Of a stretch of DNA of 37,370 bases, positions 6,240 to 34,877 are shown in pieces (position 1 is the first letter of the stretch; each line of letters begins with the position of its first letter). Under the pieces are notes generated by a model that was not told the DNA's origin, did no database searches, and was given only the letters and a program-made list of their open reading frames with translations. The position numbers and the translations under genes were made by a program. The DNA comes from Candidatus Hydrogenedentota bacterium (GTDB lineage Bacteria; Hydrogenedentota; Hydrogenedentia; Hydrogenedentales; SLHB01), in assembly GCA_016215105.1 (NCBI GenBank), contig JACRLJ010000005.1, positions 35,589 through 72,958 on the forward strand, written 5' to 3'.

Positions 6240-6273
6240 GATAGTGTAGGAGTGATTCGCGCACTACACTATC
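6240..6273. repeat. 10-bp inverted repeat between divergent genes
   Basis: Perfect arms GATAGTGTAG (6240-6249) and CTACACTATC (6264-6273) with a 14-base spacer, followed on the plus strand by GGATTTT. It could be a terminator for an unseen transcript or an operator for either divergent gene. Centre-to-centre spacing of about two helical turns would suit a dimeric regulator such as the LuxR-type protein encoded at 8888-9577. Confidence 0.4.
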
Positions 6274-6651
6274 GGATTTTGCCTGATTCTTTGCGTGGGG
6301 GATTCACCCACACACATGACGGTCCGAACAAGGAAACTTCATGCAGAACACACAGCGGCAACCCGAATTAACTGGACCGTCCCGGTGCGCCTCGGAGAAA
6401 GAGCCGCGGATCTAATTCCACCGGATGCGCTTCGCAACGGGAACATGAGTTCGTTGTTGCACCGTTGCCGGGACCCTAATAACGGCCATGTTGCCGAAGG
6501 AAAGATTGATGCGCTACCGGTTGCCTGCTAGACTTCACCTGTATTCGTAATATGGGGTGGCGGCTGTGTGCGTCAGCCGGCTATCCACCAATTCGAGCGC
6601 ATCGTGAGGTCCTGAGCGAATGGTTCACCTGAATTCGAGAAGGGACGCCAT

Positions 6652-8898: not shown

Positions 8899-9577
8899 GG
8901 GAGCCCGTCCTACGCGAATTCTGATCGTTGATGATCACCCCATGATCCGAATCGGTCTGACCCAACTCATCTCGGACGAACCTGATTTTGAGGTCTGCGG
9001 TGAGTGTACGGACGCGAGAGAGGTGTTTCCGCTCATCGACTCCCGGCAACCCGACCTCATTGTTGTCGACATTTCGCTAGAGAACAGCAACGGACTGACA
9101 CTCATCCACGATATCAAGAAGACGTACAAATCGCTCAAGATGCTCGTCTACTCGATGCACGACGAGTTGTTGTTCGCGCCACGTGCAATCCATGCCGGCG
9201 CCATGGGATATGTGAACAAACACTCCCACCCGAAAGAAGTGATAGACGCTATACGAAAGATATTGCGGGGGCGTCTTGCGGTGAGCGACCGAGTCTCGGA
9301 AGGTCTCTTGGCGCATCTGGCCAGTACCGGTATGGAACCGGCGGGAAATTCCATGGCCTCGCTTTCTAACCGCGAGCTTGAAATATTCGAGCTACTGGGC
9401 CGTGGGGCAACCATCAGGGAAATCGCTGAACGGCTGGGCAGAAGCGTGAAGACCATGGAGACGCATCGCGAGCGTATCATGGCTAAGTTGGGCCTGGACA
9501 GCAGCGCAAAGTTGGTTAGGCAGGCCGTTGAATGGGTCACGGAACAGGACCGTATCCAACGCAATTCGGTAACGTAA
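8888..9577 (+). CDS. NarL/FixJ-type response regulator (REC-LuxR HTH)
   Basis: Cytoplasmic transcription factor of 229 aa, partner of the kinase that ends at 8898. The receiver domain (residues 9-125) has the acidic pair D15-D16, phosphoacceptor D61 in VVDISL, S89 and K111 in GYVNKHS. A GerE-type helix-turn-helix (about 159-217) begins LSNRELEIFELLGRG and contains VKTMETHRERIMAKLGL, the DNA-reading helix region. The start is TTG at 8888 inside the kinase 3' end; AAAGGG lies about 13 bases upstream, so translation is likely coupled. The next gene, a large glycosidase-like protein, begins 97 bp downstream on the same strand, which makes it a candidate target. The inverted repeat at 6240-6273 could be a binding site, but nothing in the sequence proves this. 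Confidence 0.94.
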   Translation: MKSEGARPTRILIVDDHPMIRIGLTQLISDEPDFEVCGECTDAREVFPLIDSRQPDLIVVDISLENSNGLTLIHDIKKTYKSLKMLVYSMHDELLFAPRAIHAGAMGYVNKHSHPKEVIDAIRKILRGRLAVSDRVSEGLLAHLASTGMEPAGNSMASLSNRELEIFELLGRGATIREIAERLGRSVKTMETHRERIMAKLGLDSSAKLVRQAVEWVTEQDRIQRNSVT

Positions 9578-9585
9578 GCCTTGCG

Positions 9586-9617
9586 CCCGCGCGCAACGCG
9601 GGATTCCCCTGCTTTTT
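9586..9617 (+). terminator. Weak terminator-like hairpin after the response regulator
   Basis: Stem CCCGCG / CGCGGG with a 5-base loop 9 bp after the stop, followed 11 bases later by TTTTT. The distance between stem and T-run makes it a poor intrinsic terminator, so read-through into the glycosidase gene is possible. Confidence 0.4.
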
Positions 9618-9673
9618 CAACGAATGCTGTGGTACCATCCGGTGTAATGGGGAGGCCCACGGGAGTAGTCACC

Positions 9674-12600
9674 ATGATAGGAAGGTCTTGCTTAAGCATT
9701 GTTACGTCCTGCCTGATCGCGGCGCCAAGTATGGCCGCCGTTGAAGTTCGCGAGGGAGACGCGTTTGCGAGGGCAGACGCGGAGAATCAAACGTGGACGA
9801 TCGGCGCCAAGGCCGCGCAGATGACGTTTGCCTCGAAGGATGGGCAATTCCGTCTGGTGAGCTTTCAGAACACTCTGACAGCGCCGGCCCGTGAGTACGC
9901 TTCGTCGTCGGCTCCATTCGGGGTAGAGCCGCTGTCCGTCGGCGCGTTCGCGCTCGAAAAGGTCTGGTCGAAACCGATGGGCGCCGGAACAACAATCGAT
10001 CCGGCGGCGGACAAACTCCGCCTGAACGTGAAGACGGGCGACCTCATCGGATTCGGCGTGGCGACGTACTCAGACGAAGCCGGCGCGACCGTTAACTGGA
10101 CGACGACGCTCGATTACGGCGACGGGGTCAGATTTTCCTCCTCGGAAGACACTGAACTTAATCAAGGTCCCGTTTGGCAGTACTACACACGCGCGCCTGG
10201 CACAGGCTGCATGGATCTCCTGGGTGAAGTGATTCAACCGCCTACGCCCGGACAACCAAAATTCCGTGTGCCGAGCGGATACCGCGCTCCGGCAGAATGT
10301 TCGAGTCTCGGCGCAACGAAATTCTACGTGGCCAACGCGTACGAAATGGTTCGGGTGTGGAAGGCGCCCAAGGATGGCGTTGTGACCATTCACGGCGCCG
10401 CGCAACACGCCGGCGGTTCCGCCGTCCATCTCAACGCATATCGCATAGCAGCCAGGGCGAGCAAACCCATCGCGGCGCCAGACGGCCGAGATCGCTGGGT
10501 GGTGGAATCGGGAACCGTCCAGCAGGTCGCTGTGGGAGGACGCCCGGCCGTTCAGTTGAACCTAGTCCTCAACCGGGACGGCTTGCGCGCGCTTCTGCAC
10601 GTTCAGGCGTACCCCGGAACTTCGATACTTCGCCAGTGGGTCGAGTTCGAGAACACCACGAACGCCGCCGTGACACTGGCTTCGCCAACACCGCTGAGCA
10701 TCGGCCTGCGCAGAGACGACCCCACTCCGCTCACCAACTACTGGATGTGCGGCGGCACGAGCAGGCCGAACCAGGGTCAATTGGAAAGCGCCGAAGCCGG
10801 CGCGACCTATCATCATGCGCTACTCGGGGATCGAACGGACAACTACGTGCCTTGGATGGCGCTCACACGGCAGAAGAGTGGTGAGCCGGGCGACGGCCTA
10901 TTCGTTGCATTGGACGATTTGGGAACATGGACGCTCGGCGTGGATTACGCCACCGGGCAGGGGGCGCTAACGGCGAGTTTCCCGGCGCTGACGGACTATT
11001 CGTTGGCCGCGGGCGAACGGCTTCGGCTGCCGCTGGTCACCCTGGGCGTGTTCGACGGTGATCTGGACGACATGGGCCGCCGCGTGTACGACTGGCAGTA
11101 CGAGTACCTCTGGGACTACACGAACAGTGACTACTTCGCCCGGACGAAATGGACAACGTCGTGGTTCTTCTGTTCGCGAAACCTTCAAGAGCAGTTTGCC
11201 GCGCGTTTGGCCGGTCTTGATATGGACGCCGACCTCCTGCGTACGATGGGCATGGAGATGCTCTGGGACGACGCCGGGTGGTCGAAATACCCGGGGTGGC
11301 CGATCGAGGACTCCTATGCCGTGGTCTTTTCGCCGACGTACGAAGGTCCGGATTTTGCGGAGACTCTCCGGTACCTGGGCAAGATGAACATGAACTGGCT
11401 GTTGTGGATGGCGGGCCGTCCGACGGCGGGACTGCTAGACACCAAGGTTGGATCGTGGGGCAATTTCCAGTGGCGGACGGACGGCTTCGGGCGGTTCGGT
11501 CTCAAATCGGAGTTCGCGATCCGCGCGCAGATCGAGCACTTTCTGCAGGCGAATCCACGGTGCTCGTTCCACACCTGTTGCGGCGGCAGCCGCTATGCGC
11601 ACCAATTCGAGATCCAGCGCTATGCCGACGTCAATTATCTGTCGGACATGGGACGTGGGGACCAGACCAACCATTACTTGTCATACCTCGAATTGCCGGA
11701 CAAGTGGTTGGACTTGATGGACGCGCTGATTCAACCCGGTGCGAAGTATAACCCGGCCACCGGGCCCGGTCAGCTTTCGATGGCGCCGGGATGGTACATG
11801 CAGGCAAGCGGGCCGGAGCAGGAACAGCTTCGCCGGCTGATGGAAGTTTACCGATACCTTCGGCGGGAGGGCGTCGCGGGACGCTGGTCGCACATGACGC
11901 ATCCAGAGATCAAAGGCGACAAGGACTTCTACTACGATCAGCGGATCAACTACGACGGCGCGAAGGCCTGCATCATTCTCAAACATCCGGCAAAGGGCGA
12001 GGTTACGATCTACCCGAAGGGCCTGCTCGCCGAGCACAACTACAAAATTGGTTTTGAAGTGGCGAAAGATCGCGCGACACGAACCGGCGCCGACCTGATG
12101 GCGAATGGGATTGTTCTCAAGGACACTGCACCGGGCGAATTGATCTACCTGGGCTTGCCGGACATGCCCGGCGCCGGACGCGACACGGTAGCCCCCAACG
12201 CGCCGGGACGCGCGCTGACCCAGCGTGAGACCAATATTGGCCACAGCGGCGTCGGGGTCTACTGGTCCCCCACTTCCGATACTCGCTGGATAAGCTACTA
12301 CGAAGTCCGCCGCAACGAGAAGATCGTTGGCAAGGCAAGCGTCGGAGCCTACTTCTTTGATCACAGCCCGGGTTGGGACGCCAAATCCGCCTATGCCGTT
12401 CGCGCCGTGAATGGCGACGGCGTAACCAGCGCGTGGACTCCGGCTAAACCGTTGGCCAATGGTCCGGATGTCTACGCGGCCCTCGGTGGACATTTCTCAG
12501 AGGCGGGCCGCGATGGATGGAGCGCGGAGACCTCAACGGATAGCCGTGCGGTTGTTGGGATGACGTGGGTAGTGCCTGCCAAAAGCCCTGCGGGCGACAC

Positions 12601-14475: not shown

Positions 14476-15363
14476 CTAGACACAAAGCTCCACTATGCGG
14501 CGGGTAACTCGCCTCGATACTCCACCTATTTGGTACTGCCAGAAGCGGCACACTTGGCCACCTTCCTTGTCGAGCGGTTGCGTGCTGGCGGGAGCGCCGA
14601 CGATCGTGATTCCATTTACCTGTCGGCATTCCTCAAGGTGCAGGTGACCATGCAGCACCAGCCGCACGCGGTGCGACAGGCACAGGAGCCGTAGCGCCCG
14701 CCGCTCGCTTTCTGGAATTTGATGTGCAAGCCGCGACACGCTCGACATGGGCTTATTTCCTCGCTTCAGGGCTGTCTGTGATTCAGGGATATTGGGGCTA
14801 TGGTGCAGCGCCACTATCTTTACCGGCACGTCGCGGAATTGGTAAAGCAGACCCGCAAAGCGGACTAGATCGAAGTGAGCGATCACGCCTACAGCATTCG
14901 TGGCAGACGACGTGTTGCCAAGATTGTTCGAGTTAAGTACGAAAACGACCGTATCGTCGTGAATCCTGTGCATAGAAGGAAATCGCGTCGGCTGGCCGCC
15001 CATACGCAGCCCCTTCGCCATGCGTGCCATGTCCAGCTCCCTGTTCTTGGCTGAACGACGCCGAAGGCCCAGGCAGCACGCGTCGTGATTACCCGGCGCA
15101 ACGATTACCCGGCTCCGCAGACCCGCCAGATCGATCGCGTCCCAGAAGACCTCCCAAGCCTCAGGCTTCCCGCGGTCCGTCACGTCGCCAGTAACAATTA
15201 CCGCGTCGGCCTCCTGGACCGTGCGACTGCTGACGATTTGTCGGAAGTACCGGTTCATTCCCTTCAAACGCCCAAAGAGCTTCGGTTCGCTTCGAGTGGC
15301 GCCGTCCGAGGCCGTCAGGTGAAGGTCGGAAATGTGTACGATCCTCGTCTTGTGTTGAGCCAT
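14476..15363 (-). CDS. Calcineurin-like metallophosphoesterase beside ROCO protein
   Basis: Cytoplasmic 295-aa phosphoesterase with no signal peptide. The full ligand set of the calcineurin-like/CpdA-type fold is present: D13 and H15 in HISDLHL, D60 in GDVTDRG, N92-H93 in APGNHD, H187-H188 in ALHHSP, and H238-H242 in LHGHLH. Relatives hydrolyse cyclic nucleotides, nucleotide phosphoesters or nucleic-acid ends. The substrate cannot be read from the sequence. The start is ATG at 15363 with a GAGAG stretch just upstream. The gene follows the LRR-Roc-COR gene on the same strand, and the two frames overlap by 203 bases as sequenced, which is probably caused by a frameshift in the upstream gene. 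Tight linkage suggests that it acts in the same pathway, for instance making or removing a nucleotide signal or trimming nucleic acid. That link is inference. Confidence 0.9.
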   Translation of the reverse strand: MAQHKTRIVHISDLHLTASDGATRSEPKLFGRLKGMNRYFRQIVSSRTVQEADAVIVTGDVTDRGKPEAWEVFWDAIDLAGLRSRVIVAPGNHDACCLGLRRRSAKNRELDMARMAKGLRMGGQPTRFPSMHRIHDDTVVFVLNSNNLGNTSSATNAVGVIAHFDLVRFAGLLYQFRDVPVKIVALHHSPNIPESQTALKRGNKPMSSVSRLAHQIPESERRALRLLCLSHRVRLVLHGHLHLEECRQVNGITIVGAPASTQPLDKEGGQVCRFWQYQIGGVSRRVTRRIVELCV

Positions 15364-18334
15364 GAGTCTCTCTTAGTGTCGTGTGGAAGCGACTTCCGAG
15401 AGTCCTAGATTGTTCCCGGCAGCGGGGAATCCAAAACCTAGGGGTAAGCAGCTCGATCTCTGGGCAGATATCCCGCAACTGCTGTTCTTGGTGGCCCGTC
15501 AGCGCCACGTTGCTGCACAAGACGTATTTCACCCATGGCAGTTTCTCGCGCGTTAGCAGCGCACTTCGCAGGGACTTCTCGGCCTTGGTGACACTGAACT
15601 TTCCGCTTGACTCTTCTACCGACTTGCATTGATAGGCAATCTTCTTTTCGGCCCAGTACAGGTCCACCCCACCTTCCGGGGGGGTGCGCTGGTAAATCTT
15701 GTCGGTCTTCTCGTAGCGGTTCAAGACATCGCAACAAAACACCTCCCATGCATCCGCGAAAGAGGTCTGCGGCTCGATGACGAACAGCGGCGGGTAAAGA
15801 TGCGATTCACCGAAGTCTCGGAGCCACGGGTCCTCGATACCGTCGATAAGCTCGGTCACGGCGTAACGCTTATTCGTTCCTGGCGGGATGAAATCCCTCA
15901 CCTGTTGCTGTTCCAGAGTAAGTAAGTGCTCATATGACACTACGATATCCGGGTTATCCGGCAGCGGTACCATCTGCTGGGGCAGCAGGTTGGGAATAGT
16001 CGAGTGGATGCGGGCAAACTCATCGCGCAAGACGGACAGGAAGGCCCGGCGGCCTCCTTCGGGGCCGATGACGGCGATGTGCATCCGCCCCTTGTCCGTA
16101 TCGCTGCGAACAAGGGCCTTGCACCCGTCAAACTGCAACACGGAGCCGCTACGCCAGTAAACGGGCGGGGTGGTCAGGTTCTCGTAGCGGCGGACGATGA
16201 ATCGGCAGATGATACCCCCAGGCAATACGTCGTAGTGGTACTCGAACCGTAGCGCGTCCGCCCACTCACCGAGTTTAGTGGGCTCTTTCTTGGGCAGCAG
16301 TTCGGCCACGAGCCACTTATGGTCATCGCTCACGGTAAAGCACAACTCGAACTTGTGCATCATGCCCATGATGAAAGGGTGACAATGGGCAGGATGGGCA
16401 CGCCCCTTGAGGATACGGGATAGGTCGGATTTGCTCAGCACGCCGCCTGCGTCAGCAAGGGCATCGTCGTTGAGGATTTTGTACACGCCCTGCGTTACCC
16501 AGTGCGGGTTGAGCACGCTCATTTCCCGCAGGGGTAGCGGGCTGTCGGGGTCGGTGAAACTCAGTACGCTGCCAAGGTCATGCAAGAAACGTAGTAAGCG
16601 ATCCTGCTGATCGCGTTCGCGCACCCCATTGTCGTGACACAGCGTATAGTAGTCGCGGATATCGATGTAGTTCCTTGCCTGCGCCATCTCCTCGAGATCT
16701 TGCTTGACTGTGAAGTAGGCTTTGGGCAGCGGATCGAATATATGGCGCATGGCGGGGCTACGAATCTGCTTTTCGATGCCCGCCTTAAGTTGCTTAATCC
16801 CGACGCCGTTGTCGCACGAGGTTTTGAAAAAACCGCGGATACTGGGGTAGTCCTTTTGCAGGCGAGTTTCGTTTAGGTCCAGGTGGTGGGTGTCGCTTTT
16901 GTTGGTCACGATCAGTACCGGCGCATCGCCGCCGAAACTGCGAATGATCTTGAGCCAGTAGTGAATATTGCTTTCGTTCTCGCCCTTGCGGGCGTCCAGG
17001 ACCAGGAGATATACCGTCCGCTTGGTCAAGAAGAACTGGTGTGTGGCGTGCATAATCTCTTGGCCGCCAAAGTCCCAGAAGTTCACCTGAACTTTCTTGC
17101 CTTTGTTCTTACCTGGCACACTCCAGGTCTTCTCGATATAGATTCCCTCAGTTTTCTTTTCTCGCTTGTTAAAGGTGTCGTAGACGATCCGCTTTACCAA
17201 AGAGGTCTTCCCGACGCTCCCTTGTCCTACCAGGATAACTTTAACTTCATTCAGGGGCCGACGGTCGGTGGCGCCATTGGTGCGGAAGTAGTAATCCAGA
17301 ATGTCAGCGGGTACGGCCGGCGTCTTGTCGCGGCGAACTTCTCCGAGGATTTCCGGTGGAATGCCAAGACCGTCATTGAAGTGGAGATAGAGCTTTTCCA
17401 GTGAAGTGAGTCGGCCGACCTCGGGGGGTAGCGTGGAAAGCTGATTGTTGCTGAGGTCCAAGTGCGTCAGCGCGGTGAGTTGGCCGACCTCGGGGGGCAG
17501 CGCGGAAAGCTGATTCTTGCTGAGATCCAGTTTCGTCAGCGCGGTGAATTGGATTAGCACCGAAGGCAACGTGGAAAGCTGATTGTCGTTGAGGATCAGG
17601 GTCGTCAATGTGGCGAGTTGGCCAATTTCGGGTGGCAGCGTGGAAAGCTGATTGCTGTTGAGGTAGAGCGTCGTCAGTGCGGTGAGTTGGCAGACCTCTG
17701 GGGGCAGCGTGGAAAGCTGATTGTCGTCGAGGTCAAGAACCAACAGTGCGGTGAGTTGGCCGATTTCGGGGGGCAGCGTGGAAAGCTGATTACTCATGAG
17801 CGTGAGTGACATTAGTGTGGTGAGTTGGCCTACCTCGGGGGGTAGCGAGGAAAGCTGATTGTCGCTGAGGGGGAAGTTCGTCAGTGCGGTGAGTTGGCCG
17901 ATTTCGGGGGGTAGCGTGGAAAGCTGATTGCCGTCGAGGTCTAGAACGAACAATGCGGTGAGTTGGCCGATTTCGGAGGGCAGCGTGGAAAGTCTATTAC
18001 TCGTGAGTATAAGTGTTGTTAGTGTAGTAAGTTTGCCGACCTCGGGGGGTAGCGAGGAAAGCTGATTGTCTTTGAGGTTCAGGTTCGTCAGTGCGGTGAG
18101 TTGGCCGATTTCGGGGGGCAGCGTGGAAAGCTGATTGTCGTTGAGGTTCAGCCTTTGAATGTTTTCTACGCCTGGCTCGCCGAGGAGCTTGCGGAGGTCG
18201 CTGTCCTGGACTTCACACCTGGATAAGTCCAATTCGCGCCAGCCGTTGTTTCTGGCTCGGGTGACTCGGTCCGCGATCTTCTTGGATGAATAGGGAGTCT
18301 TGGAGGTCTTGCGTGTCTGGCGTGTCTTTTTCAT
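15161..18334 (-). CDS. LRR-Roc-COR GTPase (ROCO protein) with C-terminal Mrr-like PD-(D/E)xK nuclease domain
   Basis: Large cytoplasmic switch protein, 1057 codons in the frame as sequenced. After a basic N terminus come twelve leucine-rich repeats of 23 aa (58-333), eleven of them very regular. The Roc GTPase domain has P-loop GQGSVGKTS (370-378), WDFGGQE (420-426), TNKSD (477-481) and a G5-like TSC. The COR domain follows from about 535 to 850, with LHDLG, SVLNPHWVTQGVYKIL and RFIVRR. The C-terminal domain reads as a restriction-endonuclease fold: E864, GGVD (D891) and YQCK (Q902, K904), i.e. the D-Xn-QxK variant of Mrr-like enzymes. The start at 18334 has AGGGG upstream. The last roughly 70 codons are a shadow of the phosphoesterase gene, so the true stop is probably near 15375-15407. 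LRR plus Roc suggests ligand-triggered oligomerisation with nuclease output; no substrate is known. Confidence 0.9.
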   Translation of the reverse strand: MKKTRQTRKTSKTPYSSKKIADRVTRARNNGWRELDLSRCEVQDSDLRKLLGEPGVENIQRLNLNDNQLSTLPPEIGQLTALTNLNLKDNQLSSLPPEVGKLTTLTTLILTSNRLSTLPSEIGQLTALFVLDLDGNQLSTLPPEIGQLTALTNFPLSDNQLSSLPPEVGQLTTLMSLTLMSNQLSTLPPEIGQLTALLVLDLDDNQLSTLPPEVCQLTALTTLYLNSNQLSTLPPEIGQLATLTTLILNDNQLSTLPSVLIQFTALTKLDLSKNQLSALPPEVGQLTALTHLDLSNNQLSTLPPEVGRLTSLEKLYLHFNDGLGIPPEILGEVRRDKTPAVPADILDYYFRTNGATDRRPLNEVKVILVGQGSVGKTSLVKRIVYDTFNKREKKTEGIYIEKTWSVPGKNKGKKVQVNFWDFGGQEIMHATHQFFLTKRTVYLLVLDARKGENESNIHYWLKIIRSFGGDAPVLIVTNKSDTHHLDLNETRLQKDYPSIRGFFKTSCDNGVGIKQLKAGIEKQIRSPAMRHIFDPLPKAYFTVKQDLEEMAQARNYIDIRDYYTLCHDNGVRERDQQDRLLRFLHDLGSVLSFTDPDSPLPLREMSVLNPHWVTQGVYKILNDDALADAGGVLSKSDLSRILKGRAHPAHCHPFIMGMMHKFELCFTVSDDHKWLVAELLPKKEPTKLGEWADALRFEYHYDVLPGGIICRFIVRRYENLTTPPVYWRSGSVLQFDGCKALVRSDTDKGRMHIAVIGPEGGRRAFLSVLRDEFARIHSTIPNLLPQQMVPLPDNPDIVVSYEHLLTLEQQQVRDFIPPGTNKRYAVTELIDGIEDPWLRDFGESHLYPPLFVIEPQTSFADAWEVFCCDVLNRYEKTDKIYQRTPPEGGVDLYWAEKKIAYQCKSVEESSGKFSVTKAEKSLRSALLTREKLPWVKYVLCSNVALTGHQEQQLRDICPEIELLTPRFWIPRCREQSRTLGSRFHTTLRETHGSTQDEDRTHFRPSPDGLGRRHSKRTEALWAFEGNEPVLPTNRQQSHGPGGRRGNCYWRRDGPREA
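17336..18163 (-). repeat. Tandem 69-bp LRR-coding repeats with a 207-bp higher-order unit
   Basis: Twelve consecutive 69-bp units encode the leucine-rich repeats of the ROCO protein. Units 2-4 (17888-18094) and 5-7 (17681-17887) match each other better than neighbouring units do; for example GGTAGCGAGG recurs exactly 207 bases apart (17841 and 18048). This indicates duplication of a three-repeat block and makes the array prone to copy-number change. Confidence 0.9.
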
Positions 18335-26300: not shown

Positions 26301-26661
26301 CGATCCCTGGTTTGTTCCCAGGGCGCGCTACGACTATCTGCTCGTATATCCCGGCAATGGAGTCGTGGCGAGCAAGCGCTGGGAGGCCGTGCGTGACGGT
26401 ATCGAGGACTACGGCGCGCTCACGATGCTGAAACAGGCCATCGCGACCAAGGGCGCCTCGGCCAAACCTGAAGACCTCGAAGCGGCTAAACGGGTAATCG
26501 GTCAACAAGCCGCGAACGTGGCCGCATTCTGTATCGTACCCGACAAAATGGCGCCGCTCGGCGCTGACGAGATCGCCATTCGTTCCGGCGTCGCGGATCG
26601 CCAGTGGACGGATATCCAACGCGTTCGCAATGAAGTGGCTCGTCTGCTCGACGCGCTCTAG
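23305..26661 (+). CDS. Secreted FG-GAP/PQQ-like propeller fused to a DUF4091 glycosidase-like domain
   Basis: Exported protein of 1118 aa. The signal peptide spans residues 1-19 (ending AWSQA). Residues about 25-390 form a beta-propeller of repeated GDLDGDGxxEIVxG blades (for example starting near 39, 135, 175, 260 and 310), typical FG-GAP/VCBS calcium-binding motifs mixed with PQQ-like 'LD.tGk.lW' strands. A linker of beta and helical segments follows (about 410-600). The C-terminal half matches DUF4091, a GH123-related TIM barrel, with YPVDEP at 875-880 (D878, E879 as candidate active-site acids), DIWCPNR, and the late RWEAVRDGIEDYGALTML signature. The start is set by GGGAG about 9 bases upstream. 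The propeller may bind substrate or surface glycan. The reaction is probably exo-glycosidase-like; GH123 members act on N-acetylgalactosaminides, but specificity here is not shown. Confidence 0.88.
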   Translation: MRVICSIIGAAVLAGAAWSQATVWTYAPPAGHIDVSPGIGDLDGDGNVEIVVGTTAGLVVALNGAGTDLWRRETGASICIPPTVADVIGDTAPEVLVVNRQGRVLCLEGRTGAVIWDRALLARPEWGTTALAVGDLDGDGAPEIVTGALDGTVVCLRGSGEQAWAYHDKLGRVFCPAIADLDNDGQAEVLVGSDKVSLVCLSASGKERWRLDKGVGGSPFVCDLSGTGKPTILTGIGKALKALDATGKTLWSCPMPRELDSAITVADADGDGALEIYAVDLGGNLVCLSPDGKARWTANVQERVRRSPSVGDVDGDGKMEILVAGYSSAVHVSDALGHLRIRVPLPGPSNSTATLAVLGEAGLCVIVPVFGAPMQALRWQGTTPGAKVAWPEFRYNSRRTGALLPNAKKPLIDLTADFGGMCAGTNSLKAVVNNPERRKLTLRVEAVRSGGKSTVTEAASSEARVERQFPYTLSADDSGDLTLVCTVSEGKRILARRERVAPVAPFEKDISEAERIIAAVKERLPKLLDADGIEQRTFFVAAKLHELRPQVASAGASGDVARVAHRESLAAVLREARELDKLSALAAGVAAEGRTSVVRAANPWSPFGGTGDLAKNEGAQKELTVFAFGGETESAALNVFNISNRPRAYRVELEGLSQGNQMVPARDAVKLFEALNVPTERCDLSADALAALNAANVLQAPAWGARQLWLNVNTRALAPGEWKGAVVLRSLDVTPIEIRVPLTVTVWKTRLPEHQVLRNCSWGNVDASMLKDQPEEALNDQVAHGTNVFVATAPPKARFDAEGNLVGDVDFAGHDAYVKRHAPHGIILFCGYQGALAGPAGASAETYGKAHVQWLRTWVKHLADLGVGYDGFALYPVDEPGIEKGRVEEFLRLAKLAREADPNIQMYTDPVPGITTNELRAMTPYVDIWCPNRAGMVLDKTSAKKLAIIQACGKPVWTYECDDNGKHLSPLGYYRGQAWLAWKHGLTGIGFWTYCTSPDDPWFVPRARYDYLLVYPGNGVVASKRWEAVRDGIEDYGALTMLKQAIATKGASAKPEDLEAAKRVIGQQAANVAAFCIVPDKMAPLGADEIAIRSGVADRQWTDIQRVRNEVARLLDAL

Positions 26662-26674
26662 ATCATAGCCACTC

Positions 26675-26691
26675 CACCGGCGCCGCCGGTG
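26675..26691 (+). terminator. Hairpin after the DUF4091 gene
   Basis: CACCGGC-GCC-GCCGGTG, a perfect 7-bp stem with a 3-base loop, 13 bp after the stop codon. No T-tract follows, so it may stabilise the mRNA end or terminate weakly. Confidence 0.45.
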
Positions 26692-26821
26692 AGAATTGAA
26701 AAGGAGCCGCCATTGCCGCGATAGGGTGGAAGAGCTGCGTGTTACCGCATTCTGACCGGAGCTCCCGCCGCGGCGATTTGTTTGTAACAAGAACACCAAG
26801 TACGGGCGCCACGGCCGGGAG

Positions 26822-26841
26822 GGCGGATGTCCTCATCCGCC
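26822..26841. repeat. REP-like palindrome
   Basis: GGCGGATG-TCCT-CATCCGCC, an 8-bp perfect stem with a 4-base loop, flanked by GGCCGG-rich sequence on both sides. Only one copy exists in this window, so its repetitive nature is a guess from its form. Confidence 0.4.
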
Positions 26842-26990
26842 GGCCGGAACGCATCAACCCGTTCCGTCTTGTGAGCTACTTTGGGCTCGAAACCTCCGCC
26901 AGGCAGTGTTCGTTATCGTGAGTTCTGCCCATTGAATGACAACGGCTTACGTACGCCGTACGCTTCGCGGGGAATTGGCTGAAAAAAGGC

Positions 26991-27019
26991 TTGACAACTG
27001 AACCGCGATGGACTATAAA
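26991..27019 (+). promoter_or_regulatory. Sigma-70-type promoter of the blaI-like operon
   Basis: TTGACA (26991-26996), a 17-base spacer, and TATAAA (27014-27019). This is close to the ideal housekeeping promoter and lies 40 bases upstream of the repressor start codon. Confidence 0.8.
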
Positions 27020-27026
27020 TATAGTC
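27011..27026. promoter_or_regulatory. Dyad operator overlapping the -10 box
   Basis: GACTAT-AAAT-ATAGTC is an inverted repeat that covers the -10 hexamer of the promoter at 26991-27019. BlaI/MecI-family repressors bind short dyads in this position and repress their own operon, so this is the likely BlaI-like site. The binding itself is inferred. Confidence 0.65.
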
Positions 27027-27058
27027 GGTGTTGTCAATCATAGTACGAGGTGAATGTG

Positions 27059-27469
27059 ATGAAACGAAGAAGCGCTGCTCGGGAACTGCCGGAGTTGTCC
27101 CGTCTTGAACAGGAAATCATGAATGTCGTGTGGGACTTGGGAGAATGCGCCTCGGGAGACGTCATCGCCGCGTATACACCGGCGCGCCCGCTGGCCAATA
27201 CGACAATACGGACGGTGCTGACAAACCTGCGCAAGAAGGGATACGTGGAACTGGTTCCGAGCATCGACCGCGGCTACCGGCTGCGGGCAGCCGTGCCGCG
27301 AGCCACGGTGGCCGGGCGATCGCTGAAGACGCTGGTTCGCACCTTGTTCGGGGGGGCGCCGCAGCACGCTATCGCATATCTAATACGTGAGGAAGCGATC
27401 GGCGAGAGCGACTTGGAAGAGATACGGGAAATGCTCGAAGCGCGAAGAAAGAGAAAGGACAAACCATGA
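27059..27469 (+). CDS. BlaI/MecI-family transcriptional repressor
   Basis: DNA-binding winged-helix repressor of 136 aa. The N-terminal domain includes LSRLEQEIMNVVWDLGE, then TTIRTVLTNLRKKGYVE, the recognition helix and wing region typical of BlaI/MecI/CopY proteins, and the C-terminal part (about 85-136) is the helical dimerisation domain. In this family the protein is cut or released when a membrane M56 protease senses a signal. The ATG at 27059 is chosen because GAGGTG lies 6 bases upstream; an in-frame GTG at 27050 falls inside that RBS. It is preceded by a strong promoter with an operator dyad and overlaps the receptor gene by 4 bp (ATGA), so the two are translationally coupled. The regulon beyond its own operon is unknown. 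Confidence 0.93.
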   Translation: MKRRSAARELPELSRLEQEIMNVVWDLGECASGDVIAAYTPARPLANTTIRTVLTNLRKKGYVELVPSIDRGYRLRAAVPRATVAGRSLKTLVRTLFGGAPQHAIAYLIREEAIGESDLEEIREMLEARRKRKDKP

Positions 27470-30400
27470 ACACAGCAGAGCGGTTCCAATCTGCGTTGTC
27501 TATTCTTTCGAGCGAGCCCATACTGGGCCGCCTGTTCGTCGCGAGCGTAGAAATGGCGGTCCTGGCAGGCCTTGTGTGGGTCGCCATCCACGCGGGGATC
27601 GTGCGGTCACCGCGCTGGCAATCGCTGTTGTGGCTGCTGGTGCTGGTGAAACCGCTTGTTGCTGTGAGCTTGGGGGCGTTGCTACCGGTCATACAGCTTG
27701 AAGCAGCTCCTCCCGTCACCCCTGCGTCGAGAGAGGTCTTCAGCCGCGATTCCGCTCGCTTGGCGCCATCCAGTGACGACACCAAGCCTGCCCATGCGGT
27801 CGAGGAGCGTGCAGCGTGGGTAGAGAAAGGCAATGCCAGCGCGCCAGTGTCCACAGATTCCGTCCCGCCGTACGCGCGCGCGTGGCGCTGGCCGTGGGGC
27901 CTTCTACGTACGCTCGTGACGGCTTGGGCCACAGGGGCGTTCCTCCTCGCAACATACGTGGTGTTTGATCGGATACGTCTGTGGCGTCTTATCGCTGCGG
28001 CATGCCCGGCGCCCGAAGCGCTCGGGAACCAGTACCGCGAACTAGTCGCGAACTTGGGCGTAGGAAAGCCTCCGCGCCTGCGGATTACGAGCGCGCTGGA
28101 ATCGCCCGCGCTGGCGGGCGTGCTCCGCCCAACAATCCTCTTACCGGGTTGGCTGGCGGATAAACCATGGAACTCGGAACTGGAGTGGTCGCTGCGTCAT
28201 GAGTTGGCGCACTGGAAGCTGGGCGACTCGCTCGCCAACGCCGCGCGTCAGGCGGCGCAAGTATTCTTTTTCTTTCATCCAGTGACCTGGTGGGCCGGGC
28301 GGAAGTGGCAAGAGGCCGCCGAACTAGCGTGCGACCGGGCCGTGGTACACACGGAAAGCGAAGTCGAAGACTATGCCGGCAACCTGTACCAGGTGCTGGC
28401 GCAGATCCATGGCCAACGCCGGGGTCTGCTCGCCAGCGGTCTGTTTGCGACCCGCACGCAAATCGGGCGCCGAATCGCCGAACTGCTGAGCGACCCGCTG
28501 AAGTATCCCGCAAGGCTCGGCGCACGGGGTCTTGTTGTCTTGATGGCAGTGGCGGCAATCAGTCTGGCCGTAGGAAGTTCGTTCGCAAGTGGCAAGGAAG
28601 AAACGCCCGCCACGAGCGCTATCACGGTAGAGGTTCAGAAGAACATCCAACACGCCATCGAGATGCTTTCGACGACGTCGGAATTCGAGAGGGATAAGGT
28701 CAAAGCAGTATTCGACATCGTTCGCGCGCAACCCAACCGCCCTGCGCTGGACGCACTGTGTGAATGGCTAAAGAGCGACGTGGCAACGAAGCGGCGATCT
28801 GCCGTCCACATCATTGGGGCGTTGCCGTGGGAAGACGCTAGCCCCGCGTTTCAGCCGCTGCAGGACCTGCTGACGCATAAAGAAAACTCAACGCGCGGAA
28901 TGGCGGCCTTGACCTTGGCGACGATCGGCGGCAGCGCGTCCTATGACGCCATAGTAGGCATGGCGCAGAAAGATACCGATGCCTACGCCCGCCGCTGCGC
29001 GGCGTGGGCGCTGGGCGAGCTGGGCGACCCAAAGGCGCTGGAGCCGTTACAGACGGTCAGTAAGGATCCGGATACAAATGTTGCCCGGAACGCGGAGAAC
29101 GCTATTGACCGGCTCACGTTCCTGCGCAATCACGCCGGCGCAACAGGCGACGCGAAACAAGTTGTCCGAGGCATCTGGCTAGTTGCAGGATCAACCCCTT
29201 GGGATGAGACGCGGCTCGGACGCGCGGTGGACTCGGTGCGTAGCGCGGCGCCGGATGTTCGCAAAGCGCTATTGGATGAGGCCGCGTCGAACCCTTCAAC
29301 GGCGATCAAGAACAGCGCCTCGTACGTAATGCAGAAGCTTGCAGATACCGCGTCCCCGGCTTCGGGCGCAGGCGCCCCATCTCCGTCAGGCTCCGCCAAT
29401 ACGCCACACCGCGACTGGGGACCCGAACAAGCCACCGGCGCGCCTGACACAAACGAGGCAGGCGATATTGTAACGGCTTGGGCCTCTCTGACACCGGACG
29501 AACAGCCGGAATGGCTTCTGCTCAAATACGACGTGTCCGTAATTCCCAAAGGCGTGAAGATCTACGAAACCTACAATCCCGGCGCCGTCAACAAAGTGAG
29601 CGTGCTCGGCGCGGACGGCAAAGAAGTCAACGTTTGGGAAGGCCCGGACCCTACACCCACTGGCAAGGGAAAGGGCGTGTCGGAAATCGCATTCACAACT
29701 CCGTTCAAAGTGAATGCTGTGAAAATCTATCTCGATTCGCCGCGCGTGCAGGGCTGGAACGAGATTGACGCCGTGGGTCTGGTGGACGAGTCCGGAAAAG
29801 AGCACTGGGCCTCGAGCGCCGAGGCCAGCACCACATTCGCGGAACGAACACACGAGTCACGACATGCCCAGCAGGAGCCCGCCAAGCCCCAGGGCCAGGC
29901 GTCGGTCACAGTGCTGGGCGTAGATGGACAGCCGGCCGGTTCGGTGAGTATCGACGCGCTTCGCCTCGATACGTCGGCGGAGAATCTCGCCGAAAAGGAC
30001 GCCATCGTCTGGCGCGAAGGGGAAGCTCGATGGGCGCCAAGGCTCTCGACGGGTGGGCGCGGCAAATGCCAGCTCGATAATCTCGAACCTGGCAGGTACC
30101 GATTCGTTGCACAACTTGTGAACGAGGATCGGCGTGATCCGACACCTCTCGGCGTTTCCGATGCCGTCCAGATCGAGGAAGGACAAACAAAAGAAGTCGT
30201 CGTCCGGCTGCAAGGCCGCGAAGCCCTTGCCATCCGGTTCATTGACAGTGAAGCCGGGAAGGCGATCTCAACGGCTTGGTACGTACTGTACCGGGAGGAC
30301 GGACTGCCCATTGGCCGCGCCTCGAACTACAACAATTGGACAAGTGATGACGGCACGGCCCACTTCCGAGCACTCATGCCGGGCCGGTACCGGCTTCAGG

Positions 30401-32310
30401 CGAAGCGCCAAGCCGACTACCAGCACGACGCCGAATACTCCCAGGAAGGCGGACCCACTTGGATCGAGGTGACCGCCGGACGCGAAAACGCCGTGGAAAT
30501 CCATCTAAAGCCCCACCCGCTTTCCGAGGCGGAGCAGATGGAGCGCTGGCCCTTCTCGGTCTTCGGAACCGTAACCGACGAGGCGGGGAATCCGGCGCCG
30601 GACGTCGAAATCAGGGCCAGTTGCGGGATGGGTACACTGATGCCCACGGGCAATACGCGCTCTGGCGCCGATGGCAAGTATTTGCTCCGTTTCGGTCCCG
30701 GAATGCATTCATTTGAGGACAGTGGGCGCGAGCGTGTCAACCTGCAGGCAGCCACCATCCACGCCTCCAAGCCCGGTTTCTACGAGAAGAACCTTTGCCG
30801 TCAAGGCGGCCTCGGAATGGCTAACGTAAGGCCGGAGAAGACAGATGGATGGCCCGCGTCGCCGACGCAGATTGTCGTACCCAACGAGCCGTACCGGCTG
30901 GATTTCATCATGACGCCGGCCGCGCAGGTACGGGGAAAGCTCTTGGATGCCGCAGGCAAACCCGTCGTGGGACAGCGCATTACCGTGACGGGGCCTGAGC
31001 TCGGGCCGTCGAGCAGCGCCTTGACGTCTTTACAGACGATCGACGAGGGACTGTTCTCATTCGAGGCGCCCTGCAAACCGTTTCGGCTCGAACTAAACAA
31101 GCCGCCCGCTGACGGTAAAACTACGTTGATGAATCTCCAGAAACCGGGTCATTACGAAATCATACTGACGTTGGAGGACACGTCCGGCGCGGCGCGCGTG
31201 AAGGTACAGGCGCAATCCGTTCCATCGGGGATGACCAAAGAGTCGCTGCTGGCGCTGCCGCCGATCGAGTTACCGGCGGGTTTGCCGAAAGGTGTCGTGG
31301 CGCTGAGTACGGGCGACGGCACAGCCGAAGACAAGCGAAGTCTGGGGGCTTCAGGACACGCGATACGTTTTTCAAAACCGAAGGATGTGCGCTTCGTCGA
31401 GGCTGTCCAATTCTGTGGATCACGCTACGGCACGGCGGAACCGCCCAAGGACAACTTCCATGTCTACATCTTGAACGAGCAGTTCCAAGTTCTGGGCGAC
31501 CTGCCATTTCCCTACGCGATGGTCGAGCGCGGCGATATGAAGTGGTACACGCTGCGGACGCCGTCAATCGAGGTCCCGGAACAGTTCAGCGTGGCAATTG
31601 CCTTCAACCCGAGCGACACTAAAGGCATCTACTTGGGCATGGACAAAGACGTCGAGCAATCCCACTCGTACCAGGGGCTTCCCGAAGACGGATTCGAGCC
31701 GGTGAAAGATACCTTCGACTGGACGGTGCGCGTGTTCATGTCGAACGAGGCCTCGGGAGAGAAAGGCGTCCAGCACCTCGCAGACTGGACACCTCCGAAG
31801 ACCGTCAATGCCTTCGAGGGCTTGACCGAGGCCAAATACGACACGGGTAATTCCGACGGCAAGCAGAGCTACGGAGGACGCGGCCCCAGGATCGAGTTGG
31901 CGCTTGGAACTCTGGTTCCCGGCGCCGCACAACTTAAGGGATTCCGCGTCTACGGCAGCCGCTACGGGTCCGGATTCGATCCGCAAACGACTATGTTCAA
32001 ATCGGCCGTGTTGGACAAGACGGGCGCCGTGATCTGCGAACAGCAGTTCCCCTACTCGCTATTCAGTTACAAGGAAAAGTGGGTCGATCTGGTCTTGACG
32101 ACGCCTCTTTCCCTTGACAAGACCGCCGCCGATGGTGGCGCAATCTCGGTCGCCCTTGATCCCGAAGCGACGCAGTTCAAAGGCATCTACTTCCACTACA
32201 ACAAGGACCCGCAGGTATCGCACTCGTCGCGCGGGACCATAGCGCGCGGCTTCGAGCCTGTGCCCGACCGCGAGTGGATGATCCGGGCGTACGTGACATT
32301 GGCGAAGTAG
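27466..32310 (+). CDS. BlaR1-like M56 metalloprotease receptor with giant HEAT/discoidin/Cna-like extracytoplasmic region
   Basis: Membrane signalling protease of 1614 aa, partner of the BlaI-like repressor. Predicted TM helices lie near residues 21-45, 50-70, 145-165 and 355-375, the BlaR1 layout. The zinc site is HELAH (245-249) with E286 in AELACDRAVV, as in M56 peptidases. The usual penicillin-binding domain is absent. Instead, about 390-560 contains HEAT-like repeats, 645-790 a discoidin-like domain (HRDWGPEQATGAPD ... WNEIDAVGL), 820-1240 three carboxypeptidase-regulatory-like beta domains (for example SVFGTVTDEAGNPAPDVEI), and 1278-1427 and 1451-1614 a duplicated domain sharing GSRYG and GFEPV. 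These modules suggest sensing of glycan or surface contact rather than beta-lactam. The gene ends 15 bp from the convergent gene. Protease activity and ligand are inferred. Confidence 0.9.
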   Translation: MNTAERFQSALSILSSEPILGRLFVASVEMAVLAGLVWVAIHAGIVRSPRWQSLLWLLVLVKPLVAVSLGALLPVIQLEAAPPVTPASREVFSRDSARLAPSSDDTKPAHAVEERAAWVEKGNASAPVSTDSVPPYARAWRWPWGLLRTLVTAWATGAFLLATYVVFDRIRLWRLIAAACPAPEALGNQYRELVANLGVGKPPRLRITSALESPALAGVLRPTILLPGWLADKPWNSELEWSLRHELAHWKLGDSLANAARQAAQVFFFFHPVTWWAGRKWQEAAELACDRAVVHTESEVEDYAGNLYQVLAQIHGQRRGLLASGLFATRTQIGRRIAELLSDPLKYPARLGARGLVVLMAVAAISLAVGSSFASGKEETPATSAITVEVQKNIQHAIEMLSTTSEFERDKVKAVFDIVRAQPNRPALDALCEWLKSDVATKRRSAVHIIGALPWEDASPAFQPLQDLLTHKENSTRGMAALTLATIGGSASYDAIVGMAQKDTDAYARRCAAWALGELGDPKALEPLQTVSKDPDTNVARNAENAIDRLTFLRNHAGATGDAKQVVRGIWLVAGSTPWDETRLGRAVDSVRSAAPDVRKALLDEAASNPSTAIKNSASYVMQKLADTASPASGAGAPSPSGSANTPHRDWGPEQATGAPDTNEAGDIVTAWASLTPDEQPEWLLLKYDVSVIPKGVKIYETYNPGAVNKVSVLGADGKEVNVWEGPDPTPTGKGKGVSEIAFTTPFKVNAVKIYLDSPRVQGWNEIDAVGLVDESGKEHWASSAEASTTFAERTHESRHAQQEPAKPQGQASVTVLGVDGQPAGSVSIDALRLDTSAENLAEKDAIVWREGEARWAPRLSTGGRGKCQLDNLEPGRYRFVAQLVNEDRRDPTPLGVSDAVQIEEGQTKEVVVRLQGREALAIRFIDSEAGKAISTAWYVLYREDGLPIGRASNYNNWTSDDGTAHFRALMPGRYRLQAKRQADYQHDAEYSQEGGPTWIEVTAGRENAVEIHLKPHPLSEAEQMERWPFSVFGTVTDEAGNPAPDVEIRASCGMGTLMPTGNTRSGADGKYLLRFGPGMHSFEDSGRERVNLQAATIHASKPGFYEKNLCRQGGLGMANVRPEKTDGWPASPTQIVVPNEPYRLDFIMTPAAQVRGKLLDAAGKPVVGQRITVTGPELGPSSSALTSLQTIDEGLFSFEAPCKPFRLELNKPPADGKTTLMNLQKPGHYEIILTLEDTSGAARVKVQAQSVPSGMTKESLLALPPIELPAGLPKGVVALSTGDGTAEDKRSLGASGHAIRFSKPKDVRFVEAVQFCGSRYGTAEPPKDNFHVYILNEQFQVLGDLPFPYAMVERGDMKWYTLRTPSIEVPEQFSVAIAFNPSDTKGIYLGMDKDVEQSHSYQGLPEDGFEPVKDTFDWTVRVFMSNEASGEKGVQHLADWTPPKTVNAFEGLTEAKYDTGNSDGKQSYGGRGPRIELALGTLVPGAAQLKGFRVYGSRYGSGFDPQTTMFKSAVLDKTGAVICEQQFPYSLFSYKEKWVDLVLTTPLSLDKTAADGGAISVALDPEATQFKGIYFHYNKDPQVSHSSRGTIARGFEPVPDREWMIRAYVTLAK

Positions 32311-32324
32311 TGTAAGCCGCTGAA

Positions 32325-34877
32325 TTAGGGTACCTTCTTCTCCGGGGCTGTCGGAGCGATGGGCACGGGAGTCGCCCCAGTACCGCCGTCGCCGGGGCCA
32401 ACTTCGATGGCCTGAACCATAGCCTCACCCGCGGGGTTGCGGAACCGCAACTCGATTACGCCGTGGTTCGGCAGGACGCCGTTGAACACCAGATCGACAG
32501 CCCGATGCTGCCCGCCGGCTGTCGCAGCGACATCCATGTTGGTGACGCGCTCTTCACCATTGATCAGGACCGTGACAGCGCGCTTAGCTGCGGTAAGCTC
32601 GAAGGACTCCATGAACTTCAGCCGCACGTGATAGGCGCCGGGCGCCACGGTAACGTTCACCCAGAATTCCGGCGCGTGTATGCCGTAGCGATACAGCTCC
32701 GGATCGGGCGTATTCGCCACTTCGAGGCGGCGGCGCTGCGTCCACCACGTCTTCTGCACGACGTCGGTCAAAGCGCCCGTGCGACTGGCCCATTCCGTGC
32801 AGGGACGCCAGGCGTTGCTTTGCGAATCAATATAGTCGGTACGTCCATTGTATCCGCAGATCATGCGTTGCGTGTACTTGGGTCCGCCTCCCACGCCGTA
32901 GCCGGCGGCGCCGGTCGCGGCGGACCACTGGACCTCGTCAACGCACACGTTCGCGCCCTTCGACACCGCATTGCCCGCGCCGCGCGCGGCCACGCGCAGC
33001 GTGTGCTCGCCCTCGGGCAGGCCGTTCCGATAGTAGAGAACCTGCGCGGCCCTGGGCGCGGGGTTCCAGCAATCAACAGGAACTCGCTGCTTCGCGCCGT
33101 CCAAGTACACGTCCGCAAGACCGCCGTCCGGCCCGACGCGTCCGACGAGGCGGACTTGGTTTCCGGTGAAACGGTGCTCGAACGCGGCCCCTGGCGCCGC
33201 GGCTGCGCGAGCCTTCCCTTCGACTGGGGCCCACGTGCCGTCGAAGGCTAGCTCGGAGGCGGGACGCGCCTCCTGCGGGTCCGGCCCTTCGATCACGATG
33301 CGCTTCTTGCCGTCGTGCCGTATCGTCACGATGTAATCCCCCTGCGAGAGTTCCCGAAGCGTAAGCCCGTTCATCTCCAACGAAGGGCGTAACTCGAGCG
33401 GGGCGCCATCGGCGCTGACGGCCGCGGGGCGATACGCCAGGCGCAGCACGTCCAATGTCTGCGAGGGCGCATCGAACGTTGAGTATTCGATGCGGCCTTT
33501 ACCATAGACCACCCGATTCACGACGGCGCTGCTACGCACAATATGGTTCTCGCGATTGGCCCCGAACACCTCTGGCAGCCACGCGATCGTGCCGAGCACA
33601 TGCTTCAGAGGCATCGGGTGCGTAATCTTGAACCAGCTCCGAGCCACGATCACGCCGCCGTCGATGTGGTCCTCCACCATGCCCGTCTCGTGGGCGTCGT
33701 AGGTGGCCAGTATCTGCTGACGACGGGCCAGTTCCGCGACTCCGTACTGCGCAAGCGCCGTGGCGATTTCCATCGGGCCATACCACAGCGAACGCCCGCA
33801 GCAGCCCGATGACTCCGGATAGGCCCACGCGCCGCTGTACACGTCGCCCTTCGATTCGTTCGCGACGCTGGTGCGATTGAGGAATAACGACAGAACATTC
33901 CGGGTATCGTTACGCCAATTGGGGAAAACGTCGGGGTGTTCGATGAGGTACCGCGCCGCAAACTCGGTCACATTCTCCGCCTGGACGGGATCGGGCCAAT
34001 CCCAGTAATTTCGGCCCCAAGTATCGTCGACGGTCCACTTCGGCAGTAGTTCATCACGCAACCAAGCCCGGCCGTCGTCACGCGCTTTGGCGATGATCCC
34101 TCCTTCGCCCGAATAGCCGAGCCGAATCAGCTCATCGAAAAAAGTGAGCAGGAAGACGACCCCACCGGTCATGTGGTCATCCCACTGGGTGTCCGCCGGA
34201 TTCGCGTAGCGGTTCCACAGTGGCATACCGGGTTTGTTGTTGCGATGTATCGCGAGCTGATCACCCCAATGCTTGCACGCCTCGAACCACCGCTCGTTGC
34301 CCGTCATCTGGTATGCGCGAAGAAGCGCTAGACCGGTTTCAGCGGCGATATCGAGTTGGATCATACCCTGCGGGTTGCATTGACCGTAGGGCTTGCCTTT
34401 GGTGGGAACGCTGATGAGAAATCCCGGCCACGGGTGGTTCGGCGGGGTCAGACAATAGCCGAGCAGATAGTCGGCCATGTAGGTCACGTGAGCGATGGCC
34501 GCCGGGTCACCGCTGTATCGGTAGTAATCAACCCAGGAAGAGAACACGTAGGCCGCGCGCTGCCCGAGATCGCCGTTGTCCCAGTCGCGCAGGTCAGGAA
34601 TCTCGATGTCGCCCGCCGGCGAGATCCGCCACGTCCCGTTGAACACGTACTCGGGCGCTGGCATCTGCGATTTCGGCGGCGCCGCCCACGGGTATCGCTT
34701 GAGCGTTTCCGCCGCGATGCGCACGCGAAAGTCGAGCTGACCGTTCAGCCCCGAGTACCACGGCGCGATAACTCCGTTGGAATCCTCGACGGTCGGATAC
34801 GCGTAGTAGTGGTCCTGCCGAGTGGCGGAGAGACTCACTAGCGGGATCAGACATAGCGCGAGTGTGGACATAGTCAT
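32325..34877 (-). CDS. Secreted (alpha/alpha)-barrel glycosidase-like protein with C-terminal malectin-like domain
   Basis: Exported protein of 850 aa with a signal peptide at about residues 1-18. The first roughly 400 residues are helical with W/Y/D-rich repeats (DLGQRAAYVFSSWVDYYRYSGD, TGLALLRAYQMTGNERWFEACKHWG), typical of (alpha/alpha)6 barrels. An SSGCCGRSLWYGP motif with C359-C360 recalls the paired cysteines of GH127/GH146-type arabinofuranosidases, but the resemblance is short. A beta sandwich follows (about 400-550), then a galactose-binding-like domain (about 555-680) and a malectin-like module (about 700-830; GAYHVRLKFMESFEL ... AMVQAIEV). The start is ATG at 34877 with GGGAG 4-5 bases upstream; ATG at 34871 is equally possible. 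It follows the SGNH esterase by 52 bp and is convergent with the M56 receptor gene. Confidence 0.78.
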   Translation of the reverse strand: MTMSTLALCLIPLVSLSATRQDHYYAYPTVEDSNGVIAPWYSGLNGQLDFRVRIAAETLKRYPWAAPPKSQMPAPEYVFNGTWRISPAGDIEIPDLRDWDNGDLGQRAAYVFSSWVDYYRYSGDPAAIAHVTYMADYLLGYCLTPPNHPWPGFLISVPTKGKPYGQCNPQGMIQLDIAAETGLALLRAYQMTGNERWFEACKHWGDQLAIHRNNKPGMPLWNRYANPADTQWDDHMTGGVVFLLTFFDELIRLGYSGEGGIIAKARDDGRAWLRDELLPKWTVDDTWGRNYWDWPDPVQAENVTEFAARYLIEHPDVFPNWRNDTRNVLSLFLNRTSVANESKGDVYSGAWAYPESSGCCGRSLWYGPMEIATALAQYGVAELARRQQILATYDAHETGMVEDHIDGGVIVARSWFKITHPMPLKHVLGTIAWLPEVFGANRENHIVRSSAVVNRVVYGKGRIEYSTFDAPSQTLDVLRLAYRPAAVSADGAPLELRPSLEMNGLTLRELSQGDYIVTIRHDGKKRIVIEGPDPQEARPASELAFDGTWAPVEGKARAAAAPGAAFEHRFTGNQVRLVGRVGPDGGLADVYLDGAKQRVPVDCWNPAPRAAQVLYYRNGLPEGEHTLRVAARGAGNAVSKGANVCVDEVQWSAATGAAGYGVGGGPKYTQRMICGYNGRTDYIDSQSNAWRPCTEWASRTGALTDVVQKTWWTQRRRLEVANTPDPELYRYGIHAPEFWVNVTVAPGAYHVRLKFMESFELTAAKRAVTVLINGEERVTNMDVAATAGGQHRAVDLVFNGVLPNHGVIELRFRNPAGEAMVQAIEVGPGDGGTGATPVPIAPTAPEKKVP

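Follow-up and report, generated by a model that had tools for sequence, protein, structure and literature searches.

The window analyzed here, a stretch of 37,370 nucleotides from a Candidatus Hydrogenedentota bacterium, contains a two-gene operon in which an open reading frame (ORF) for a BlaI/MecI-type repressor is followed by an ORF for a membrane protease-receptor of the M56 family, the two overlapping by 4 bases at the repressor stop (Table 1). The repressor scores 80 bits against Penicillinase_R (PF03965; Pfam cut-off 22.6), and residues 27-338 of the receptor match Peptidase_M56 (PF05569) at 104 bits (Pfam; cut-off 31, E 1.1e-29). ATG at 27059 is favored as the repressor start over GTG at 27050, with GAGG at 27047-27050. 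An earlier note on this DNA, made from the letters alone, had called the M56 module and its BlaI partner canonical, and the HELAH motif, E286, the four transmembrane (TM) segments and the Penicillinase_R match bear this out.

Table 1. Features of the BlaI-M56 operon, its promoter and its products (aa, residues of the receptor).
Feature	Position in window	Strand	Basis and remarks
-35 box TTGACA	26991..26996	+	sequence; pattern TTGAC-N13-19-ACTATNNNNATAG
Operator dyad GACTATAAATATAGTC (predicted), over -10 box TATAAA at 27014-27019	27011..27026	+	sequence; kept in lineage
Third half-site ATAGTA, at a fixed distance from the dyad	27040..27045	+	[AG]TAG with this spacing shared by 7 of the 10 lineage promoters inspected
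BlaI/MecI-type repressor	27059..27469	+	Pfam Penicillinase_R, E 2.2e-22; PDB match 1sd4 (penicillinase repressor), E 6e-11
M56 protease-receptor, 1614 aa	27466..32310	+	ORF listing and Pfam
TM1 (aa 23-41), loop, TM2 (aa 58-76)	27532..27693	+	hydropathy scan
Extracytoplasmic loop EL1, aa 77-148 (predicted)	27694..27909	+	hydropathy and analogy with BlaR1 topology (PMC9834060)
TM3, aa 149-167	27910..27966	+	hydropathy scan
HELAH zinc motif, aa 245-249	28198..28212	+	sequence motif
E286-LAC-D290, third zinc ligand motif	28321..28335	+	sequence alignment
L326-F327, predicted autocleavage bond	28441..28446	+	aligned with BlaR1 Ser283-Phe284
TM4, aa 356-374	28531..28587	+	hydropathy; aligns with the signal-peptide-like N-terminus of free protein L076:4389-5237
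HEAT-repeat region, about aa 386-625	28621..29340	+	HEAT_2 at 464-546 (Pfam, E 2.2e-18); free L076 protein, 54% identical
F5/8C (discoidin)-like domain, about aa 645-800	29398..29865	+	homologues, model, fold matches
Carboxypeptidase-regulatory-like region, about aa 812-1240	29899..31185	+	three PF13620 stretches, best 1031-1082; SpaA-like 926-986 (Pfam)
C-terminal domain copy 1, aa 1276-1428	31291..31749	+	self-alignment
C-terminal domain copy 2, aa 1450-1614	31813..32307	+	self-alignment

The dyad proposed by the earlier note as a BlaI operator is real in the sense that it lies at the promoter of the repressor's own gene, as is typical of the BlaI family, and is kept in the lineage. A promoter scan of 26600-27200 found nothing because its rule requires T as the last position of the -10 box, and the promoter was assigned by inspection. 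At the cleavage site of BlaI the P1' Phe is described as almost invariant (PMC9834060), and the window residue aligned with P1' Phe102 of BlaI is Leu; this lowers the certainty about the cleavage site and leaves family membership untouched, because Phe is not a Pfam criterion.

The catalytic part of the receptor is that of its family, with the HExxH and ExxxD zinc motifs present in all 22 M56 proteins compared. F327 aligns with Phe284 of Staphylococcus aureus BlaR1, the P1' residue of the Ser283-Phe284 autocleavage bond (PMC9834060), and by alignment of sequence alone the putative cleavage bond of the window protein has the bulky hydrophobic P1' residue. The four hydrophobic segments fall where the M56 family expects them on hydropathy; the N-out/C-out orientation is taken over from BlaR1, and the analysis of the loops covered their charge counts. 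Beyond TM4 lie 1240 residues, which would be found on the side of the BlaR1 sensor if the two proteins share their topology.

This predicted ectodomain is composite. The HEAT-like repeats, discoidin-like domain, three carboxypeptidase-regulatory-like domains and duplicated C-terminal domain that had been read from the translation were all recovered by Pfam, fold comparison and self-alignment, CarboxypepD_reg matching in three stretches (Pfam, E 3.3e-14). The F5/8C-like copy of the window scores 16.6 bits against PF00754, below the cut-off of 28.2, and four of the seven aligned homologues (window copy included) match that family, the best at 6.7e-07; the homologues sit in loci labelled Spartobacteria, Planctomycetota and Nanoarchaeota. 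An AlphaFold2 model built from the seven sequences has a mean pLDDT of 67.5 with a good core, and among known structures it comes closest to domains of PAPP-A and of the CBM32 type, with Z about 9. Among the best 50 rows the jelly-roll matches have Z of 8.2 to 9.4 at 5-24% identity, and the Foldseek E-values all exceed 0.001. The window domain would thus share its predicted fold with the F5/8C (discoidin)/CBM32 and PAPP-A jelly rolls but stays under the Pfam cut-off, and on its homologues and model we take the predicted discoidin-like domain to be real. Neither HEAT repeats nor carboxypeptidase-regulatory-like folds point specifically to glycans; with at least one predicted fold of a glycan-binding type (F5/8C-like, with CBM32 fold matches) in the ectodomain, a glycan-type sensor is plausible and the label "glycan-like sensor" appears reasonable.

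The two C-terminal domains are a tandem duplication (30% identity, E 9e-16). The fold model, built from two sequences, is weak (mean pLDDT 62.7); its best Foldseek match is BcsB at E 3.6e-03, and its VIA matches (Z 6.5 to 9.3) are mixed beta sandwiches, the top rows being baseplate or fibre proteins of phages, while BcsB and carbohydrate-binding modules rank lower. The doublet was found in two of the 68 class genomes, the window genome and G004, and no relatives were found in the viral contigs searched.

The BlaI lineage of the window comprises 12 members (window included) in 10 of the 68 class genomes at E 1e-20. In all twelve the BlaI gene is followed by an M56 gene, that of G048 ending at the contig end, and 10 of the 12 promoters fit TTGAC-N13-19-ACTATNNNNATAG exactly, the two divergent ones carrying related forms; the dyad type of the lineage is RACTATnnnnATAGTC, over the -10 box. 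Behind this common switch the ectodomains differ. The window protein carries HEAT, F5/8C-like and carboxypeptidase-regulatory-like parts and the C-terminal doublet; of these, one G004 protein has just the last carboxypeptidase-regulatory-like part, together with the doublet. STN/SecDF-like ectodomains occur in G026 and G033 (the G026 protein, assigned through its homology to G033, also shows a run of N and the beginning of a HEAT part), and leucine-rich repeats (LRR) with carboxypeptidase-regulatory-like parts in G037, G065, G066 and G063 (the G065 protein and the first G066 protein being assigned through their homology to G037). The second G066 protein has an additional thioredoxin domain, and the G020 protein and the second G004 protein are short. 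In the M56 tree the window protein falls into a five-member group (support 98) with three ectodomain layouts, one member, L107, ending at the contig end with its ectodomain unreadable; the deep nodes of the lineage have support of 29-75. An M56 receptor at L110:5778-10286 (+) has an ectodomain ending in a thioredoxin/TlpA-like domain, and at L071:4125-4934 (-) a third gene with collagen-like repeats overlaps the M56 stop.

The boundary at which ectodomains are exchanged may be TM4. A free, secreted-type HEAT protein of 282 residues in genome G013 (L076:4389-5237, -) is 54% identical to receptor residues 358-623, and no M56 part was found beside it. The match begins inside TM4, which corresponds to the hydrophobic N-terminus of the free protein, and BlaR1 is documented to be cut by signal peptidase directly behind its last TM helix (PMC9834060); TM4 may therefore be interchangeable with a signal peptide. 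The best reading of these comparisons is that the relay and its operator are inherited and that the ectodomain is exchangeable cargo behind TM4. An operator kept while the ectodomain changes within one lineage is the outcome that a modular receptor platform predicts. Public domain databases also display large M56 architectures. Within the literature covered, which was partial and excluded preprints, we found no paper on exchanged M56 ectodomains.

The window genome itself holds 11 M56 genes and 11 BlaI genes, all 11 paired, the highest count in a class in which M56 genes were found in 38 of 68 genomes at E 1e-6. The other ten pairs share with the window pair its gene order, promoter type and catalytic motifs but differ from it in operators and ectodomains, the latter being LRR (three), HEAT, secretin-like, Big_5, carboxypeptidase-regulatory-like, CsgG/LpoB-like and, in two cases, without named domains; no penicillin-binding family was matched in these ten at E 0.01. 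A TTGAC box stands upstream of each of the 11 pairs, inverted half-sites can be read by eye in every case, and a script listed an inverted repeat in 9 of the 11. At L067 an M56 protein of 385 residues without an ectodomain (6272-7429, +) is followed by a separate ORF of 1199 residues (7447-11046, +) that appears by eye STN-like and carboxypeptidase-regulatory-like, an arrangement that may represent either a frameshift or a split receptor. Plasmid matches to the receptor (10 records) are all confined to residues 115-393, in the M56 part. The variety of ectodomains bears on an account in which the ectodomain would be a sensor of envelope state that reports envelope assembly or stress: the STN/SecDF-like, secretin-like, CsgG/LpoB-like and thioredoxin-like variants among the paralogues and the lineage derive from envelope proteins, but the window protein has HEAT, F5/8C-like and carboxypeptidase-regulatory-like parts and none of those families, and no target genes were found, which leaves this account unlikely.

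The reach of the switch was assessed by searching for the dyad in its own genome (up to two mismatches), in six genomes (up to one), in 68 genomes with promoter context and in the window (up to three); none of these searches gave a convincing second target. Without mismatch the dyad occurs once in the genome, at its own promoter. With up to one mismatch there are four sites (three extra), against three for a reversed-pattern control, and in the window up to three mismatches give 8 dyad-like sites, against a shuffle mean of 6.5. Across the 68 genomes TTGAC-N13-19-ACTATNNNNATAG has 16 matches, of which 10 are the lineage promoters; the reversed-pattern control gives 5 matches, against the remaining 6. 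Among these six, two are intergenic (G066:C293 and G013:C152) and are leads only; no BlaI of the window lineage was found in G013 at E 1e-20. The match at G066:C293:9586-9622 (L125) is promoter-like and lies, by eye, upstream of a pilin-type ORF, which is a possible second target in a genome that has the window BlaI lineage.

The same pattern holds for the paralogues whose operators were searched. For five pairs (the window pair and four paralogous ones), 8 of 9 exact operator cores in their own genome lie at the pairs' own promoters; the exact patterns of L058, L065 and L062/L063 give 3, 2 and 3 sites, with 2, 2 and 3 at own promoters and 1, 0 and 4 per strand for the reversed controls. The odd site out (C149) lies in what was judged by eye to be coding-like DNA. 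These searches covered five of the 11 pairs, no pair giving a known multi-gene regulon as proof of the method's reach, and exact patterns miss degenerate sites because they admit no mismatch. At this stringency exact cores lie nearly all at the pairs' own promoters, so the regulon, and with it the control exerted by the switch, appears limited to the operon itself. The search proposed in the earlier note as a way to map a BlaI regulon from the 27011-27026 dyad accordingly lent no support to targets beyond its own operon; a relay that serves only itself has no obvious output, and degenerate operators elsewhere may therefore have been missed. The two LRR-type M56 pairs L062 and L063 have one operator type in common (ACTACNNNNGTAGT), so cross-talk between these two circuits may occur.

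The earlier note had placed the pair between secreted glycosidase-like genes and suggested that the relay controls adjacent secreted enzymes of polymer degradation. The placement stands in part: the upstream neighbor encodes an FG-GAP/beta-propeller protein whose match to the GH123 catalytic domain is weak (30 bits against a cut-off of 23.1), and the downstream neighbor (ORF 32325-34877) encodes a malectin-domain protein. Carbohydrate-active-type genes do flank the pair on both sides (FG-GAP/GH123-like, malectin-domain, GDSL, DUF6259/GH66-like and 6-hairpin-like), the G004 relative has a GH95 gene nearby, and the ectodomain has a predicted CBM-like fold. Control of such enzymes is nonetheless improbable, since the exact dyad stands only at its own promoter and the window shows no enrichment of operator-like sites, which together argue against control of the flanking genes; the downstream neighbor lies convergently on the opposite strand and so cannot belong to the operon, and none of the glycosidase-like neighbors in the window recurs at the 11 related loci compared. 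At those loci the upstream gene matches only by its FG-GAP repeats, and the conserved neighbors are generic pilin-type, FG-GAP and regulator matches. Farther off in the window, 15161-18334 (-) encodes an LRR-Roc-COR protein of 1057 residues, a bacterial ROCO-type GTPase.

The defining sensor of BlaR1 was searched for in several ways. Searched at E 1 against Pfam and NCBIfam, the receptor matched no penicillin-binding family other than BlaR1/MecR1 models, and those matched its M56 part only: blaR1_generic (NCBIfam) aligns over model positions 102-326 of 585 at 79 bits, far below its cut-off of 400. The PDB search with the ectodomain returned no BlaR1 sensor at E 1, and the transpeptidase-like domain named in the earlier note as the finding that would speak against it was not found in Pfam, NCBIfam or PDB. 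Its statement that no SxxK/SxN/KTG set is present holds for the ordered triad, which is absent from the ectodomain at the spacing chosen; isolated strings exist (five SxxK, two [SY]xN and one KTG at 1518). That the receptor senses beta-lactams through a penicillin-binding domain that went unrecognised, a reading favored by the shared M56/BlaI module and the KTG string, is extremely improbable and already contradicted by these sequence searches, in which no transpeptidase or beta-lactamase family matched the receptor at E 1 in Pfam and none of the 16 window ORFs scanned matched a beta-lactamase family. Because the defining sensor was tested for and is absent, the window pair is, judged by its sequence, an M56-family module of BlaR1-BlaI type and not a BlaR1/MecR1 beta-lactam receptor; the Pfam and NCBIfam matches support the protease relay without a beta-lactam sensor that had been proposed.

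We consider it fairly probable that the pair is a proteolytic relay of the BlaR1 type with a swapped, probably glycan-binding sensor, which mainly induces its own operon. The large ectodomain would bind an extracellular ligand, most likely a polymer such as a glycan, and the signal would cross the membrane through the TM helices to reach the M56 zinc site in the cytoplasm. M56 would then cleave BlaI, and release of BlaI from the dyad that overlaps the -10 box of the operon's promoter would induce the two genes. A bolder and rather doubtful extension of this relay is that M56-BlaI is a portable self-induction cassette fronting secreted or envelope proteins: TM4 would serve in place of a signal peptide, a private operator would act on its own promoter only, the ectodomain would be both sensor and product, binding of the target would raise its own expression, autocleavage with signal-peptidase processing may shed the ectodomain, and lineages would swap the cargo but keep the switch and operator.

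With the S. aureus BlaR1-BlaI and MecR1-MecI systems the window pair shares the M56 gluzincin module, the four TM segments, the BlaI partner, the dyad operator and the aligned autocleavage loop, but it differs from them in having a multi-domain ectodomain of 1240 residues in place of a penicillin-binding sensor, no beta-lactamase in the window ORFs scanned and an exact operator at its own promoter only. Use of a BlaI/BlaR1-like pair outside beta-lactam resistance is already known from cyanobacterial PetR-PetP, as described in a commentary (PMC7896320), where the regulon is small (four proteins) and includes petE and petJ. Compared by that description, PetR-PetP shares with the window pair its family membership and non-beta-lactam role but differs in its regulon and in the copper sensing proposed for PetP (PMC7896320). 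Two features appear new within the literature searched: an operator that is kept while the ectodomains behind it are exchanged, and circuits that look private.

Most work on BlaR1 and MecR1 has treated them as antibiotic sensors. In the class compared here, a single genome carries up to 11 copies of this relay, their ectodomains unrelated to one another, and each pair would be an insulated circuit if its operator is as private as it looks. This raises the testable question of what role is played by an M56-BlaI pair whose sole visible target is itself.
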